Source of the DNA: Caulobacter sp. | GTDB taxonomy: Bacteria; Pseudomonadota; Alphaproteobacteria; Caulobacterales; Caulobacteraceae | Direction: 5' to 3' | DNA length: 64,000 nt | NCBI GenBank assembly: GCA_021741355.1 | Contig: JAIOXZ010000009.1 | Coordinates: 1-64,000 of the forward strand | Part shown: one piece after another, positions 2,946 to 20,190 of the stretch | How positions within the stretch are numbered: position 1 is the stretch's first letter | How the letters are laid out: the number at the start of each line of letters is the position of its first letter | Made by a program: the position numbers and the translations under genes | The notes under the pieces: model-generated | The model's database searches: none | The model's input: the letters and a program-made list of their open reading frames with translations, nothing else | What the model was told of the DNA's origin: nothing

Positions 2946-3102
2946 CCCTTCTCCCGCGAGGGGAGAAGGTGGCCTGCGAAGCAGGTCGGATGAGGGGTCG
3001 CAGACCGCATCCGCGCAAACTCAAGGGGTTGAGACCGACAGGCCGGTGAGCCCCCTCATCCGTCGGGCATTGCCCGACACCTTCTCCCGCGGGGGGAGAA
3101 GG
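2946..3102. repeat. family D intergenic inverted-repeat pair, copy 1
   Basis: Two hairpin-forming segments in opposite orientation (about 2946-2998 and 3051-3102) each carry CCTTCTCCC...GGGAGAAGG next to a conserved GGATGAGGGG or CCCCTCATCC block. The pair fills the space between two convergent genes. The same arrangement recurs at 36157-36312, with looser variants at 16387-16533, 40259-40412 and 48701-48846. It may also act as a bidirectional transcription stop. Confidence 0.8.
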
Positions 3103-3103
3103 A

Positions 3104-3793
3104 TTATCGCGTGCGGTCCTGCTCCGACTGCCGCTGTTCCAGCCTCAGAGCCAGGGTCCGGGTCCGGCGGATCAGGGTCCAGACGGTCCCCGCCGCGATC
3201 ACCGCAAGGCCGATCATCAGCACCTGCCCCTGCCCGCCCCAGATCGGCTCGAGCGCACTGAGGACGCAGGTGACCGTCAGGGCGAACATGCGGTGAGGCT
3301 TGGCCATCGGGCCGGAGAAGTCAGCGGGGAAGTCGAGGCCGCGGCCGAGCTCGCGGACATAGGCGGTCATCACCGCCAGCAGCGCCGCAAGCCAGCCTAG
3401 CCACGAGCCGGCCGTCAGTCCCATCGCCCAGGCGCCATAGCCCGCGCCGACCAGGAACAGGGCGTCGGCGACCCGGTCGGGCAGTTCATTCCAGATCGCC
3501 CCAGCGCTCGAGCCGAGGCCATGTTCGACCGCGACCATCCCGTCGAGCATGTTGGCCAGCAGCCGCAGCTGGATGCAGACCGCCGCGCCGATCAGGCAGG
3601 CGGCGCGCAGGCCGGCCTGGTCCTCCAGGCCGCTGATCATCAGCAGCGCCGCGCCGAGCACGGCGAAAACGACCGAAAACAGCGAGATGATGTCGGGACT
3701 GATCCGCGCCCGTCCGAGCCGCGCCGCAAGCGCGCCGGCCCAGGCTTTCGACCGGGTCTTCAAGGGGCGACGGTTCTCGGGGGTCTCGGTCAT
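3104..3793 (-). CDS. CDP-alcohol phosphatidyltransferase-family protein with altered active-site motif
   Basis: This 229-residue integral membrane protein resembles enzymes that transfer a phosphatidyl group from CDP-diacylglycerol to an alcohol. The expected metal-binding motif is DxxDGxxAR-x8-GxxxDxxxD. Here it reads NMLDGMVAV...GAIWNELPD near residue 85, so the first and third Asp are Asn and the Arg is Val, while the second Asp and the last Asp remain. I remember similar wording in YnbA/YnjF-like relatives, so this may be a natural subclass rather than decay. The start at 3793 overlaps the stop of the upstream membrane protein by 4 bp (ATGA). Confidence 0.8.
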   Translation of the reverse strand: MTETPENRRPLKTRSKAWAGALAARLGRARISPDIISLFSVVFAVLGAALLMISGLEDQAGLRAACLIGAAVCIQLRLLANMLDGMVAVEHGLGSSAGAIWNELPDRVADALFLVGAGYGAWAMGLTAGSWLGWLAALLAVMTAYVRELGRGLDFPADFSGPMAKPHRMFALTVTCVLSALEPIWGGQGQVLMIGLAVIAAGTVWTLIRRTRTLALRLEQRQSEQDRTR

Positions 3794-4173
3794 GCGACGC
3801 TCCGTCGGGTCCGGACCAGGCCCGCGTTGTAGACGATGGCGTAGAGGGTCGAGACGCTCCACGGAAAGGCGATGGTCGCGATCAGCTCGGGTGTGCCGAT
3901 CAGCGTATGGACGAGCACCAGCAGCACGAGAATCGAACCGGCCGTCACCGCGGGCGGAACCGTATAGGCGAGAACCCCGCCGAGCCGGCCATCGAGCGCC
4001 TCCAGCGTCTTCTTGAGCCCGCCGGTCAGGGCGCCGGACAGCATCCCCTGCGCCAGCGCGGGCAGCCAGGCGGCCCCCAGACCGTGCGCGCGGTTGGCGA
4101 ACAGGGCCCAGCCGCCCATCAGCAGAAAGCCGAACGCGACGTGGACCAGGCTCGATTTGATCAACCTCTGCAT
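3790..4173 (-). CDS. small polytopic membrane protein of the phospholipid cluster
   Basis: The 127-residue product has about four hydrophobic segments (about residues 8-25, 32-48, 68-90 and 98-117) and short loops. It has no recognisable enzymatic motif. It is the first gene of a two-gene unit, overlapping the CDP-alcohol transferase-like gene by 4 bp, and is divergent from the CdsA-like and PlsC-like genes. Context suggests a role in the same lipid pathway, as substrate handling or an accessory subunit, but that is inference only. Confidence 0.65.
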   Translation of the reverse strand: MQRLIKSSLVHVAFGFLLMGGWALFANRAHGLGAAWLPALAQGMLSGALTGGLKKTLEALDGRLGGVLAYTVPPAVTAGSILVLLVLVHTLIGTPELIATIAFPWSVSTLYAIVYNAGLVRTRRSVA

Positions 4174-4221
4174 GCGCAGAGCCTTGACCGGATCACCACG
4201 CCCGGCAAGGTCCCCCAGGTG

Positions 4222-4336
4222 CGTGGTTCGAGACGCTCGGCTGGAGCCTCGCTCCTCACCATGACGAAGGGGGTTTGCAGCCCGTCCTCCTCGTCATCCT
4301 GAGGAGCCCTCGCAGAGGGCGTCTCGAAGGACGCAG
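4222..4336. repeat. family C intergenic inverted-repeat pair, copy 1
   Basis: The left arm (4222-4268) contains TTCGAGACGCTC followed by GCTCCTCACCATGACG. The right arm (4291-4336) carries the reverse orientation, CGTCATCCTGAGGAGC then GTCTCGAAGGACG. Further copies are at 17693-17796 and 20085-20190. This copy lies in the shared upstream region of the two divergent lipid gene pairs. Confidence 0.8.
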
Positions 4337-4386
4337 GGACGCCCATGCCCGACCCCTTCGGGGCCCGGCCGGATCAGGACCTGACA

Positions 4387-5358
4387 ATGGATATCATCCG
4401 GCTGATCGTCGACTTCCATAACGCGCAGCCGCTGCCGCTGCTGTGGGGTCTGGGCGGCATCTTCGCCATGCTCGTGCTCGGCAGTCTGGTGGCGGCGATC
4501 CTCACCGTGGCCCGGCCGTCGAAGGACTACCGCGAACTGCGCCAGCGGATGACGAGCTGGTGGGTCATGGTCCTGCTGCTGGCCGCCGCCCTGCTGGCCG
4601 GATGGCAGGCGACCCTGGCGCTGTTCGCCGTGGTGTCATTCATCGCCCTGCGCGAGTTTCTGTCGCTGGCCCCGACGCGACGCGAGGACCGGCTGATCAT
4701 CCTCGGCTGCTATCTGACCATCCCGGTCAGCTACGCCTTCGTCGCCGCCGACATCTACGGCATCTACCTCGTCATCATCCCGGTCTACGCCTTCCTGATC
4801 CTGCCCTGGCTGATGGCGGTGATCGGCCAGACGAAGGGCTACCTGTCCAGCGTCGCCCTGTTCCACTGGGGGCTGATGACCTGCGTCTACAACATCGGCT
4901 ACGCGGCCTTCCTGATGCGGGCGCCGGCGGATCAGACGCCTGCGGGCGCCGCGGGCCTGGTGTTCTTCCTGCTGGTCGCCACCGAGTTCAACGACGTGGC
5001 GCAGTACGTCTGGGGCAAGCTGTTCGGGCGAAACAAGATCATCCCCAGGGTCAGCCCCAACAAGACCTGGGAGGGCTTCCTCGGCGGCTGGGCCAGCACC
5101 GCGGCGCTGATCTGGTTCGTGGGCCCGGTCTTCCTGCCGCTCGGCGGGGTGGGCCTGGCCACGCTTGCCGTCGTGCTGCCGGTCGCCGGCTTTGCGGGCG
5201 ATGTGACCATGAGCGCGATCAAGCGGGACATCGGGGTCAAGGACACCTCGCACCTGATCCCGGGGCACGGCGGCATCCTCGACCGTATTGATAGCCTGAC
5301 CTTCACCGCGCCGTTGTACTTCCACCTCCTCGCCTGGTTCTCGCTGGCGAAGTTCTGA
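4387..5358 (+). CDS. phosphatidate cytidylyltransferase (CdsA family)
   Basis: The enzyme makes CDP-diacylglycerol from phosphatidate and CTP at the inner membrane. About eight hydrophobic segments precede the highly diagnostic C-terminal signature SAIKRDIGVKDTSHLIPGHG followed by GILDRIDS. The start at 4387 (MDIIRL) is preceded by AGGA at about 4376; an in-frame ATG at 4345 would add 14 polar residues encoded beside the repeat. The next gene begins 13 bp after the stop. As it clusters with an atypical transferase rather than with rseP/bamA/uppS, it is probably a second, YnbB-like paralogue and not the housekeeping cdsA. Confidence 0.87.
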   Translation: MDIIRLIVDFHNAQPLPLLWGLGGIFAMLVLGSLVAAILTVARPSKDYRELRQRMTSWWVMVLLLAAALLAGWQATLALFAVVSFIALREFLSLAPTRREDRLIILGCYLTIPVSYAFVAADIYGIYLVIIPVYAFLILPWLMAVIGQTKGYLSSVALFHWGLMTCVYNIGYAAFLMRAPADQTPAGAAGLVFFLLVATEFNDVAQYVWGKLFGRNKIIPRVSPNKTWEGFLGGWASTAALIWFVGPVFLPLGGVGLATLAVVLPVAGFAGDVTMSAIKRDIGVKDTSHLIPGHGGILDRIDSLTFTAPLYFHLLAWFSLAKF

Positions 5359-5371
5359 GGGACGCGCGCTG

Positions 5372-6013
5372 ATGAACTGGATCCGCTGGCTGCTCCTGCT
5401 GCTGATCGTCCGGCCGATCGCGCGGTTCCTGACCGGCGCCGACGTGAGCGGGCGCGAGCACCTGCCGCTGAGGGGCCCGGCCATCGTCGCGGCCAATCAC
5501 AACAGCCACATGGACACTCTGCTGCTGCTGAGCATCTTCCCCAGCCGGGCGGTGATGCGCGTGCGGCCGGCGGCGGCGTCGGACTACTTCCTGCGCGACC
5601 CGGTGATCGGCTGGTTCTCGCGCAACCTGATCGGCATCGTTCCGATTGCCCGCGGCAAGGCCGGGACCGGCGAGGACGTGCTCGCTCCGGCGCGGGAGGC
5701 CCTGGCCGCCGGCGACATCATCGTGGTCTTCCCGGAAGGCACGCGTGGCGACGCCTCCGACGAGATGGCGGCGCTGAAGAGCGGCGTCGCCCGGCTGGCC
5801 GAGGCCTTCCCCGACGCACCCGTGACGCCGGTGTGGATCCAGGGCGCCGGACGGGTCCTGCCCAAGGGCGAGGTGATTCCCGTGCCCCTGAACTGCGCGG
5901 TTCTGATCGGCGAGCCGGTGCGATGGGAAGGCCGGCGCGCCGAGTTCATGGACGGGCTGCGCAAAGCGTTGCTCAAGCTGAAGGCCGAGGCTCCGCCGCT
6001 GCGCTGGCGCTGA
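5372..6013 (+). CDS. 1-acyl-glycerol-3-phosphate acyltransferase-like protein (PlsC family)
   Basis: The 213-residue membrane-associated acyltransferase has one N-terminal hydrophobic segment. The acyltransferase block I is NHNSHMD (HxxxxD pattern with the catalytic His and Asp, about residue 45) and block III is FPEGTRG at about residue 125. Together with the CdsA-like gene 13 bp upstream it would produce phosphatidate and then CDP-diacylglycerol. The last 41 bp overlap the end of the convergent CPBP protease gene. Confidence 0.85.
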   Translation: MNWIRWLLLLLIVRPIARFLTGADVSGREHLPLRGPAIVAANHNSHMDTLLLLSIFPSRAVMRVRPAAASDYFLRDPVIGWFSRNLIGIVPIARGKAGTGEDVLAPAREALAAGDIIVVFPEGTRGDASDEMAALKSGVARLAEAFPDAPVTPVWIQGAGRVLPKGEVIPVPLNCAVLIGEPVRWEGRRAEFMDGLRKALLKLKAEAPPLRWR

Positions 6014-6962
6014 GGCCGACAAGTCGGCGCAGGCGGGCGTCCCGGTGCACAAACACCGCCAGACCGATCAGGACGAGCGTCGGGAGCAGGTAGATGGCCC
6101 ATCCCGTGAGGGACAGTTCAGCCGAGGGCGGCGCGCCTGGATTGATCCAGTCGGCGTCGTTCAGGATTGGCCTGAACGTCCTGTCGCCGAAGAATTCGAT
6201 GGCGAGGTTCCAGCCCGTATGCAGGCCTATCCCCCATTCCAGGCCGCCGGTCCGGATCGCCGCCCAGGCCAGCGCGGCCCCCAAGATCGTAAGGTCCACA
6301 AATCTCCAAGGCTGGTATTCCCGGTGCGCCACCGCGAACAGGACGCTGCTGATCACCACGGCGACGGCCACGCCGCACCTCGCATCTCTGAGGCGATCCA
6401 GCAGCCAGCCCCGAAAGACCAGTTCCTCGGAGGCGGCGGCCAGCAGGATTAGCACCGTCACACCACCCACGCCAAAGAACAGCTGCAGCGGATCCGCCAG
6501 ACGCGACATCACGGGCGGGCTGTATCCATCGGATGAGGCAGAACCCGAGGCCGCCAGATAGATCGCCAGGGGCAGACCCCAGAGGACAAGGCCGGCCAGC
6601 AGCGGACGGATTCGAAAGGTCGGGGCGGAACTGACCCAGCTGAACATGGGTCGCCGATGAGCCAGGCTGGCGGCCAGCAATGTGCCGGTGGCGAAGACGA
6701 CGGCCGCCGACGTTTCGGGGAGATCGAAGGCGAAGGCGCCGATGCCGTCGCCGAAGATCATGATGTCTCGAAAGACGTTCCTGTAAACCAGCCAGAAATC
6801 GAGCGACAGAATGCCAAGCCCACGAAGCAGACCAGTTCCGACCAAGGCGCCGACGCCATAGGCGAGCAGCGCCGGAATGATCCCCACGAACACCCAGAGC
6901 GCCAGGAACCGGGGCAGACCCGATCGCGAACTTTCCCCTGACGCTGTCACCGAAAGAGACAT
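5973..6962 (-). CDS. CPBP-family intramembrane metalloprotease (CAAX-like/Abi)
   Basis: The 329-residue protein has about eight membrane segments. The CPBP motif 1 EELVFRG (EExxxR) is near residue 183; motif 2 is represented by the FAVAHREY segment (H), and motif 3 by HTGWNL near residue 250. These are the predicted metal-binding and catalytic residues. Members cleave or process membrane substrates, and some protect against self-toxic peptides, but no partner gene is visible here. The 3' end overlaps the PlsC-like gene convergently by 41 bp. Confidence 0.83.
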   Translation of the reverse strand: MSLSVTASGESSRSGLPRFLALWVFVGIIPALLAYGVGALVGTGLLRGLGILSLDFWLVYRNVFRDIMIFGDGIGAFAFDLPETSAAVVFATGTLLAASLAHRRPMFSWVSSAPTFRIRPLLAGLVLWGLPLAIYLAASGSASSDGYSPPVMSRLADPLQLFFGVGGVTVLILLAAASEELVFRGWLLDRLRDARCGVAVAVVISSVLFAVAHREYQPWRFVDLTILGAALAWAAIRTGGLEWGIGLHTGWNLAIEFFGDRTFRPILNDADWINPGAPPSAELSLTGWAIYLLPTLVLIGLAVFVHRDARLRRLVGLSASAAAEPRPSA

Positions 6963-17692: not shown

Positions 17693-17796
17693 CGTGGTTC
17701 GAGACGCTCGGCTGATGCCTCGCTCCTCACCATGACGGGCATTGGTGTTCGTCATCCTGAGGAGCGATCCCTCGGGATCGCGTCTCGAAGGACGAA
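17693..17796. repeat. family C inverted-repeat pair, copy 2
   Basis: The pair has GTTCGAGACGCTCGGCTGATG and CTCGCTCCTCACCATGACGG on the left and CGTCATCCTGAGGAGC then CGTCTCGAAGGACG on the right. It lies just after ribF ends (17803), between ribF and the protease gene. Same family as 4222-4336 and 20085-20190. Confidence 0.8.
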
Positions 17797-20084: not shown

Positions 20085-20190
20085 CGTCCTTCGAGACGCT
20101 CGCTTGAGGCTCGCTCCTCAGGATGACGCAAGCGGGTGGGCTTCATCACCATTCGTCATGGTGAGGAGCGCGGAGCGCGTCTCGAACCAC
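20085..20190. repeat. family C inverted-repeat pair, copy 3
   Basis: Arms CCTTCGAGACGCTCGC plus GCTCCTCAGGATGACG (left) and CGTCATGGTGAGGAGC plus GCGTCTCGAACC (right) face each other across about 25 bp. It fills the gap between the S9 peptidase 3' end and the HAD gene start. Confidence 0.8.

Follow-up and report, generated by a model that had tools for sequence, protein, structure and literature searches.

A widespread YnbAB-related gene module with an N-D-N-D CDP-alcohol phosphotransferase, described from a Caulobacter locus

Introduction

CDP-alcohol phosphotransferases (CDP-APs) make many phospholipids across all domains of life. The eight-residue signature of these enzymes, D1xxD2G1xxAR...G2xxxD3xxxD4, has been described as absolutely conserved (PMC4634129). 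In the accounts given of the mycobacterial phosphatidylinositol phosphate (PIP) synthase, D1, D2 and D3 hold a first magnesium ion (Mg-1), D3 also binds a second one (Mg-2) and D4 is presumed to be the catalytic base (PMC6506517, PMC4634129). Here, we describe a CDP-AP gene that departs from this signature, located in a four-gene cluster at positions 3104-6013 of a 64,000-nucleotide stretch of Caulobacter sp. DNA (contig JAIOXZ010000009.1, positions 1 to 64,000), which as a whole is referred to as the window.

The closest described system is the ynbABCD operon of E. coli, in which ynbA, encoding a CDP-AP, directly precedes ynbB, encoding a relative of the CDP-diacylglycerol (CDP-DAG) synthase CdsA. 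YnbB is reported to make CDP-DAG in vitro, and a backup role in the synthesis of the glycolipid MPIase was proposed for it (PMC6362211, PMC7018664). No study of YnbA activity was found in the open-access literature; the accessible text of an insertion screen on cyclic di-GMP mentions ynbA once, in a table, and that of a Brucella paper names PssA, CdsA and acyltransferase genes whose locus tags lie far apart.

The Caulobacter locus consists of two divergent gene pairs, identified from the list of open reading frames and a Pfam search. The first-pass annotation had named a PlsC-like, a CdsA-like, a CDP-AP and an unidentified membrane protein; Pfam domains agree for the first three, and the fourth has no Pfam match.

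3104..3793, minus strand: CDP-AP with N-D-N-D in its metal motif (NDND type; P0001, 229 aa; PF01066 23.8 bits, cut-off 22; six-helix CDP-AP fold)
3790..4173, minus strand: small four-helix membrane protein (P0002, 127 aa; conserved family A2, no Pfam match)
4174..4344, no strand: divergent intergenic region between both gene pairs
4345..5358, plus strand: CDP-DAG synthase CdsA of the YnbB lineage (P0003, 337 aa; CTP_transf_1 211 bits)
5372..6013, plus strand: PlsC-like 1-acylglycerol-3-phosphate acyltransferase (P0004, 213 aa; Acyltransferase 88 bits)

Homology and fold place P0001 in the CDP-AP superfamily, although it departs from the canonical motif in a conserved, invariable manner, and the gene set to which it belongs is widespread, unstudied and related to E. 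coli ynbAB. On somewhat better than even grounds, we read the module as a dedicated YnbAB-type side branch of phospholipid synthesis that uses a phosphate-bearing acceptor and a modified CDP-AP chemistry. Judging from the sequences, the CDP-AP probably makes a minor phospholipid by such modified chemistry and is not a broken enzyme.

A coupled set of substitutions in the active site

The motif of P0001 reads NMLDGMVAV...GAIWNELPD, with N81 at D1, D84 at D2, G85, A88, V89 at the position of the signature Arg, G98, N102 at D3 and D106 at D4, so that the canonical signature is missed at three positions. The residues on which the following argument turns are encoded at these positions:

3563..3565, minus strand: Arg77 codon, four residues before D1 (D1-4); Arg in 150/150 NDND sequences and 0/79 canonical ones
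3551..3553, minus strand: Asn81 codon, D1 position (motif alignment and census)
3542..3544, minus strand: Asp84 codon, D2 position, retained in the alignments
3527..3529, minus strand: Val89 codon, signature Arg position; mostly V/I/L in the window's subtype, R in the YnbA subtype
3488..3490, minus strand: Asn102 codon, D3 position (motif alignment and census)
3485..3487, minus strand: Glu103 codon, acid directly after D3 (D3+1), in the NDND class only; Glu in 146 and Asp in 4 of 150 NDND sequences, 0/79 canonical ones
3476..3478, minus strand: Asp106 codon, D4, retained in the alignments; catalytic-base position as described in PMC4634129
3473..3475, minus strand: Arg107 codon, aligned with R94 of the mycobacterial PIP synthase; 103/103 in the window's subtype
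3290..3292, minus strand: Arg168 codon, aligned with R155 of the same enzyme (alignment, conservation)
3164..3166, minus strand: Arg210 codon, aligned with R195 of the same enzyme (alignment, conservation)

All 109 aligned CDP-AP rows keep N-D-N-D, among them a relative that is 91% identical; besides P0001 they comprise 108 distinct rows, in which the window's own gene is present a second time as L001. The motif census set 150 distinct NDND sequences against 80 comparison loci (L116, the 30 best loci of one search, 40 picked by hand from its cut-off list and 9 weak matches of another search), a set that leans to strong Pfam matches; 79 of these show the motif, all as D-D-D-D, and the Arg at D1-4 and the acid at D3+1 are as constant among the NDND sequences as they are missing from the 79. 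The first census set also contained four D-D-D-D genes, and these likewise have neither feature. No mixture of Asp and Asn at D1 and D3 was found among the 150 NDND and 79 canonical sequences, and the sole intermediate in the census is L194, which reads A-D-N-D with the D1-4 Arg and the Glu present. The remaining comparison locus, L203, has Gly at D4 and gives no motif match; alone among the 12 canonical rows of the profile alignment, it has an Arg in the column of Arg77. L194 (genome G329), a YnbA-like paralogue in which Ala occupies D1 and Val the Arg position, is the one departure from N-D-N-D seen, and none of the module families was found within its 8 kb.

Among 103 sequences of the window's subtype, D2, D4, both signature Gly residues, the Ala, R107, K165, R168 and R210 are invariant; the cytidine-side Ser is found in 101, and the two remaining rows have a gap there. 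The YnbA subtype retains R168 and R210 where aligned, with V/I/M in place of R107 and G in place of R147. Part of the loci were collected with six peptide seeds, of which ANMLDGMV covers D1 and D2 (in 46/80) and MAKPHRMF covers K165 and R168 (in 45/80), while 34/80 are without ANMLDGMV. R77, N102, E103, D106, R107 and R210 lie in none of the six seeds, and in the sets collected without seeds these residues, as well as D2, K165 and R168, are invariant, counting E or D at position 103, in 22/22 distinct rows from 101 relatives and in 19/19 from a search of 299 genomes.

The loss of two carboxylates is thus accompanied by one Arg and one acid as a fixed set. Since the substitutions form such a set, with the Arg at D1-4 and the acid at D3+1, while D2 and the base Asp are invariant, they suggest a rebuilt rather than a dead active site. 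The first-pass annotation had rightly reported N-D-N-D in the metal motif and Val for Arg, although the latter is true of P0001 and most of its subtype and not of the YnbA subtype; its remark that such substitutions usually remove catalysis does not fit a set kept in 150/150 sequences together with two additional features. At the signature Arg position, Ala is described as tolerated by one fungal phosphatidylserine (PS) synthase and not by other enzymes cited in the same paper (PMC8727905).

A dead CDP-AP kept as a regulatory or channelling partner of the YnbB-type CdsA and PlsC is an alternative that we regard as unlikely. It would account for the loss of two metal ligands, given that Ala at D1 or D3 is reported to lower PS synthase activity sharply (PMC8727905), as well as for the tight linkage of CdsA to the CDP-AP, and a partner is conceivable for YnbB, which on its own is described as unable to sustain bulk phospholipid synthesis. 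A scaffold, however, need not keep D2, D4 and the acceptor-side Arg residues invariant in 103 sequences or the cytidine-side Ser in 101 of them. Of the two roles offered by the first-pass annotation, an unusual lipid is the better suggestion and regulation of lipid flux by a dead enzyme the less likely one.

That the gene was wrongly sequenced or is decaying has nothing in its favour beyond the odd motif itself; this reading has a negligible probability and was rejected, because N-D-N-D is kept in every aligned row and because the ratio of nonsynonymous to synonymous substitution rates (dN/dS) of the CDP-AP lies between 0.10 and 0.43 in four comparisons. Against L031 this ratio is 0.10 for the CDP-AP, 0.18 for the membrane protein, 0.105 for CdsA and 0.05 for PlsC; comparison with L033, L034 and L037, which are more distant, gives 0.12-0.43, the maximum of 0.43 being that of the CDP-AP against L037. 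All four genes are under purifying selection.

Fold and acceptor pocket

The AlphaFold2 model of P0001 (pLDDT 93.4) shows the six-helix CDP-AP fold, and its closest folds in the PDB are the PIP synthases and AF2299, tied at Z ~20-21 (for 5d92, VIA Z 21.0, rmsd 3.0, 202 aligned), with lower scores for IPCT-DIPPS (Z 18.5), choline phosphotransferase (15.3), PgsA (12.6) and PS synthase (11.9). In the profile alignment R107, R168 and R210, all invariant in the window's subtype, correspond to R94, R155 and R195 of the M. tuberculosis PIP synthase, the phosphate-binding Arg residues of that enzyme. Changes at these three residues are described as crippling activity or the use of inositol phosphate (PMC6506517, PMC4634129). 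Glu103 aligns with A90 of the mycobacterial enzyme, where a bulkier side chain is reported to lower activity, presumably by hindering the inositol ring (PMC6506517). By their place in the alignment, Arg77 and Glu103 would lie close to the metal site.

Inositol phosphate itself was considered as acceptor for such a pocket and set aside. The genome of the window has no match to inositol-phosphate synthase (PF01658), in a search that was positive in 6/14 control genomes, and none was found with PF01658 in the 27/27 carriers of the window's CDP-AP subtype among the 101 relatives; PF01658 was added because PF07994 alone is a weak control, having missed Corynebacterium. De novo inositol phosphate is unlikely to be the acceptor, since carriers lack the enzyme that would supply it. 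As PF01658 exceeds its cut-off in just 5/101 relatives, one of them (G088) with a YnbA-type gene, there is no negative association, and the carriers merely do without the synthase.

The pocket would also suit glycerol-3-phosphate, whose phosphate is what the aligned Arg residues seem to want. Glycerol-3-phosphate is generally present in cells. P0001 might accordingly be an ordinary second phosphatidylglycerol-phosphate synthase that tolerates Asn ligands and provides a redundant route to phosphatidylglycerol, and many canonical sequences indeed have a basic residue after D4 (of the 79, 40 have K there and 3 have R). This possibility appears slightly weaker than that of a dead enzyme: P0001 scores 15.5 bits with the pgsA model (cut-off 109), the PgsA structures fit worse than the PIP synthases (Z 12.6 vs 21.0), and the genome already holds a PgsA of its own (L116; 123 bits against the same cut-off).

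Partner genes and the link to YnbB

The CdsA of the window falls into a clade of 16 rows with E. coli YnbB (L111; Shimodaira-Hasegawa-like approximate likelihood ratio test, SH-aLRT, 99), and all 28 module CdsAs lie on one side of a branch (SH-aLRT 72) from the 23 others, which include the housekeeping CdsA of the genome and that of E. coli. Within the YnbB clade, CdsAs linked to transferases of the window's subtype and of the YnbA subtype are intermixed, which suggests that the two transferase types do related jobs. A CDP-AP tree built with the four trait columns masked resolves the two types as clades with support of 99 and 100; both clades lie on one side of a branch whose SH-aLRT is 24, which leaves a single origin of the NDND motif possible. 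The CDP-AP tree holds 71/237 rows, among them 24 rows of the window's subtype drawn at random and without the window's own CDP-AP, and the CdsA tree holds 51 rows; both were made by a quick method without bootstrap after thinning near-identical rows at 62% and 60% identity, respectively.

This kinship brings the MPIase pathway into view. Overproduction of YnbB is reported to raise MPIase (PMC6362211), and YnbB, according to a review, restores MPIase and not phospholipids (PMC7018664). The accessible texts of both articles do not name YnbA, the product of the gene directly before ynbB (PMC6362211, PMC7018664). P0001 could on this basis be a maker of a sugar-pyrophosphoryl-diacylglycerol primer of the MPIase type, in which an oxygen of the acceptor phosphate, not a hydroxyl, attacks CDP-DAG; formation of N-acetylglucosamine-pyrophosphoryl-diacylglycerol (GlcNAc-PP-DAG) required GlcNAc-1-phosphate and CTP (PMC6362211), and a phosphate nucleophile would need less help from metal or base, which would suit the NDND site. 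Still, partially purified CdsA8 made GlcNAc-PP-DAG (PMC6362211), CDP-DAG supplied by Tam41 is described as not restoring MPIase in cdsA/ynbB knockouts, where ynbA was presumably still there (PMC6362211), and D4, which a hydroxyl acceptor would need as its base, is invariant. We hold this alternative to be improbable, more so than a second PgsA. Just as improbable is its broader form, in which the NDND CDP-APs including YnbA would be a separate catalytic class whose Arg replaces one Mg and whose acceptor phosphate attacks to give sugar-pyrophosphoryl-diacylglycerol primers; if it were true, the YnbA class would supply the transferase that is missing next to YnbB from the synthesis of MPIase-like glycolipids, and would be part of a bacteria-wide pathway for lipid-pyrophosphate primers.

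P0004 contains the HX4D and FPEGTR motifs and aligns with the PlsC structure 5kym; among its relatives with at least 120 bits (n=101), a loose HX4D occurs in 101 and [FY][PVA]EG[TGS]R in 98. The small membrane protein belongs to a family, A2, with 37 invariant columns among 19 chosen sequences, and occupies the same place in the operon in Nitratireductor and Paracoccus aminophilus. Its fold has no convincing match, the best being a designed protein at Z 7.9, with no Foldseek match below E 1. A homologue (L262) lies on the plasmid pRltTA1D of Rhizobium leguminosarum TA1, beside Ku and DNA ligase genes, and the annotation of this 10-kb locus includes no lipid genes. The idea of a role dedicated to the module is weakened by this relative, which sits away from it.

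Distribution and gene neighbourhoods

By their titles, the records of NDND loci point to nine phyla: Pseudomonadota, Omnitrophota, Bacteroidetes, Acidobacteria, Bdellovibrionota, Verrucomicrobia, Planctomycetota, Chloroflexi and Hydrogenedentota, where we take Angelobacter to belong to Acidobacteria and Oligoflexia to Bdellovibrionota. Most are metagenome bins, with isolates including Singulisphaera acidiphila, Caulobacter ginsengisoli and Phenylobacterium haematophilum. The window's subtype is found in 27 and the YnbA subtype in 3 of the 101 relatives. In 299 Pseudomonadota genomes, with at most 9 first-pass candidates scored per genome, the family profile matches in 54. Of these, 20 have a gene of the window's subtype and 27 score in the range of YnbA, including one A-D-N-D and one disrupted case; the other 7 show nothing beyond weak matches to ordinary CDP-APs. 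Within the genus of the window the CDP-AP is present in 26 genomes searched, its own included, while others are listed without it, and the module is thus patchy.

Among 106 non-redundant loci, many of them with short or cut-off flanks, CdsA is linked to the CDP-AP in 89, PlsC in 77, the membrane protein in 31, YnbD in 10 and YnbC in 9, and CdsA adjoins the CDP-AP in 20/20 genomes with the window's subtype in the 299-genome search (in G037 as seen in its longer locus, L043). Order and strand vary: Nitratireductor and Paracoccus aminophilus have a single operon PlsC-CdsA-membrane protein-CDP-AP, Paracoccus albus has PlsC-CdsA-CDP-AP without the membrane protein, and Rhizobium etli has CDP-AP-PlsC-CdsA. 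This variation argues for functional linkage over mere descent of the layout. Closer to the window, the seven Caulobacteraceae loci that show both rluB and rsmD (L031, L033, L034, L035, L037, L040 and L043) have the module between these two genes, just as in the window; in four 10-kb Phenylobacterium loci (L038, L039, L042 and L044) neither gene is seen. In six loci from Verrucomicrobia (L068, L069, L075, L077, L085 and L089), a CDP-AP of the window's subtype precedes homologues of YnbC and YnbD, and no CdsA was detected there.

Proposed pathway

In the pathway that we favour, PlsC would convert lysophosphatidate to phosphatidate, from which the YnbB-lineage CdsA would make CDP-DAG; the CDP-AP would then transfer the phosphatidyl group from CDP-DAG to a phosphate-bearing acceptor held in a pocket like that of PIP synthase, possibly a phosphorylated polyol or phosphorylated sugar, but not de novo inositol phosphate. 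Because two of the four metal carboxylates are Asn, with an Arg beside D1 and an acid beside D3, catalysis probably proceeds with fewer Mg ions, with help from the Arg and with the retained D4 as base. The small membrane protein may be an accessory partner in alphaproteobacteria.

Several observations weigh against this proposal. To our knowledge, no member of the NDND family has an assigned product, and none was found in the open-access literature on ynbA-ynbD and the gene set. Conservation of K165/R168 and D1/D2 is partly preselected among the seed-found sequences. The YnbA-type relatives are without R107 and R147, so that the acceptor pocket is not common to the whole class and the YnbA acceptor may differ from that of the window's subtype. 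YnbD, which could be the phosphatase that finishes a phosphatidyl-polyol-phosphate, has no match in the genome of the window in a search that had no positive control. In the C. albicans PS synthase, D1A is described as almost inactive and D3A as retaining one fifth of the activity (PMC8727905), so that substitutions at D1 and D3 should be harmful. Finally, YnbB reportedly could not take over bulk phospholipid synthesis from CdsA, and a role in MPIase synthesis was proposed for it (PMC6362211, PMC7018664).

If the proposal holds, the module points to an unassigned minor lipid, and the YnbB-type CdsA gains a natural partner outside its proposed role in MPIase synthesis. The NDND class, to which an E. 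coli K-12 gene belongs, also offers a test of the catalytic mechanism of the superfamily.

Fine structure of the locus

The genes of the minus-strand pair overlap by 4 bases (ATGA). A GTG at 3862 offers an alternative upstream start of the CDP-AP; the conserved N-terminus, with R8, R9 and P10 invariant in 61 aligned sequences, speaks for the ATG at 3793. A scan of the intergenic region 4174-4344 found no sigma-70-like site. Between 4220 and 4335, this region holds an inverted repeat with 17-nt arms (88% complementarity) as well as the 15-mer TCATCCTGAGGAGCC, which recurs with one mismatch at 17752 and again at 20112 (chance expectation 0.26 matches); together they are possibly an element like the repetitive extragenic palindromic (REP) sequences. 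The gap between rluB and the CDP-AP gene (2947-3102) contains an imperfect inverted repeat with 56-nt arms, each of which has one copy of a 23-nt palindrome-like unit as its outer end. On the other side, a gene for a CPBP-type (Rce1-like) membrane protease (5973-6962) lies between the module and rsmD, convergent to plsC; it has no match at E 1e-20 in the loci searched, including L031.

Comparison with known systems

Housekeeping CdsA shares the CTP_transf_1 domain with the module CdsA (40-44% identity over 44-50% of the length) but lies on a separate branch of the tree, and according to a review the N-terminal halves of YnbB and CdsA are not homologous (PMC7018664). PgsA has the superfamily fold in common with P0001, which falls far below the cut-off of TIGR00560 (109.1 bits), and the genome's own PgsA differs by its D-D-D-D motif. 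The archaetidylinositol phosphate synthase profile (NF040950) is the top NCBIfam match of both P0001 (57.6 bits) and YnbA (75.1 bits), yet both stay far under its cut-off of 180 and have a changed motif. The PIP synthases (M. tuberculosis PgsA1 and R. salmoninarum PIPS) share the fold, the residues aligned with R94, R155, R195 and Y133, and a basic residue, R in place of K135; the window's CDP-AP differs from them by N at D1 and D3, by V at the Arg position and by 46.5 bits with the NCBIfam PIPSynth profile, whose cut-off is 170.

The resemblance to ynbAB that the first-pass annotation had suggested holds. YnbA is an N-D-N-D CDP-AP with the Arg at D1-4 and Glu at D3+1, and YnbB and the window's CdsA belong to one clade, so that the window holds both parts of a YnbAB-type module, an NDND CDP-AP with the two additional features and an adjacent YnbB-lineage CdsA. 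The YnbC and YnbD partners of the E. coli operon are not in the window's locus, and in the genome of the window YnbC matches over its hydrolase half only, at 26% identity. The window's subtype differs from YnbA by V at the signature Arg position and by R107 and R147, and the window's module adds PlsC and the small membrane protein.

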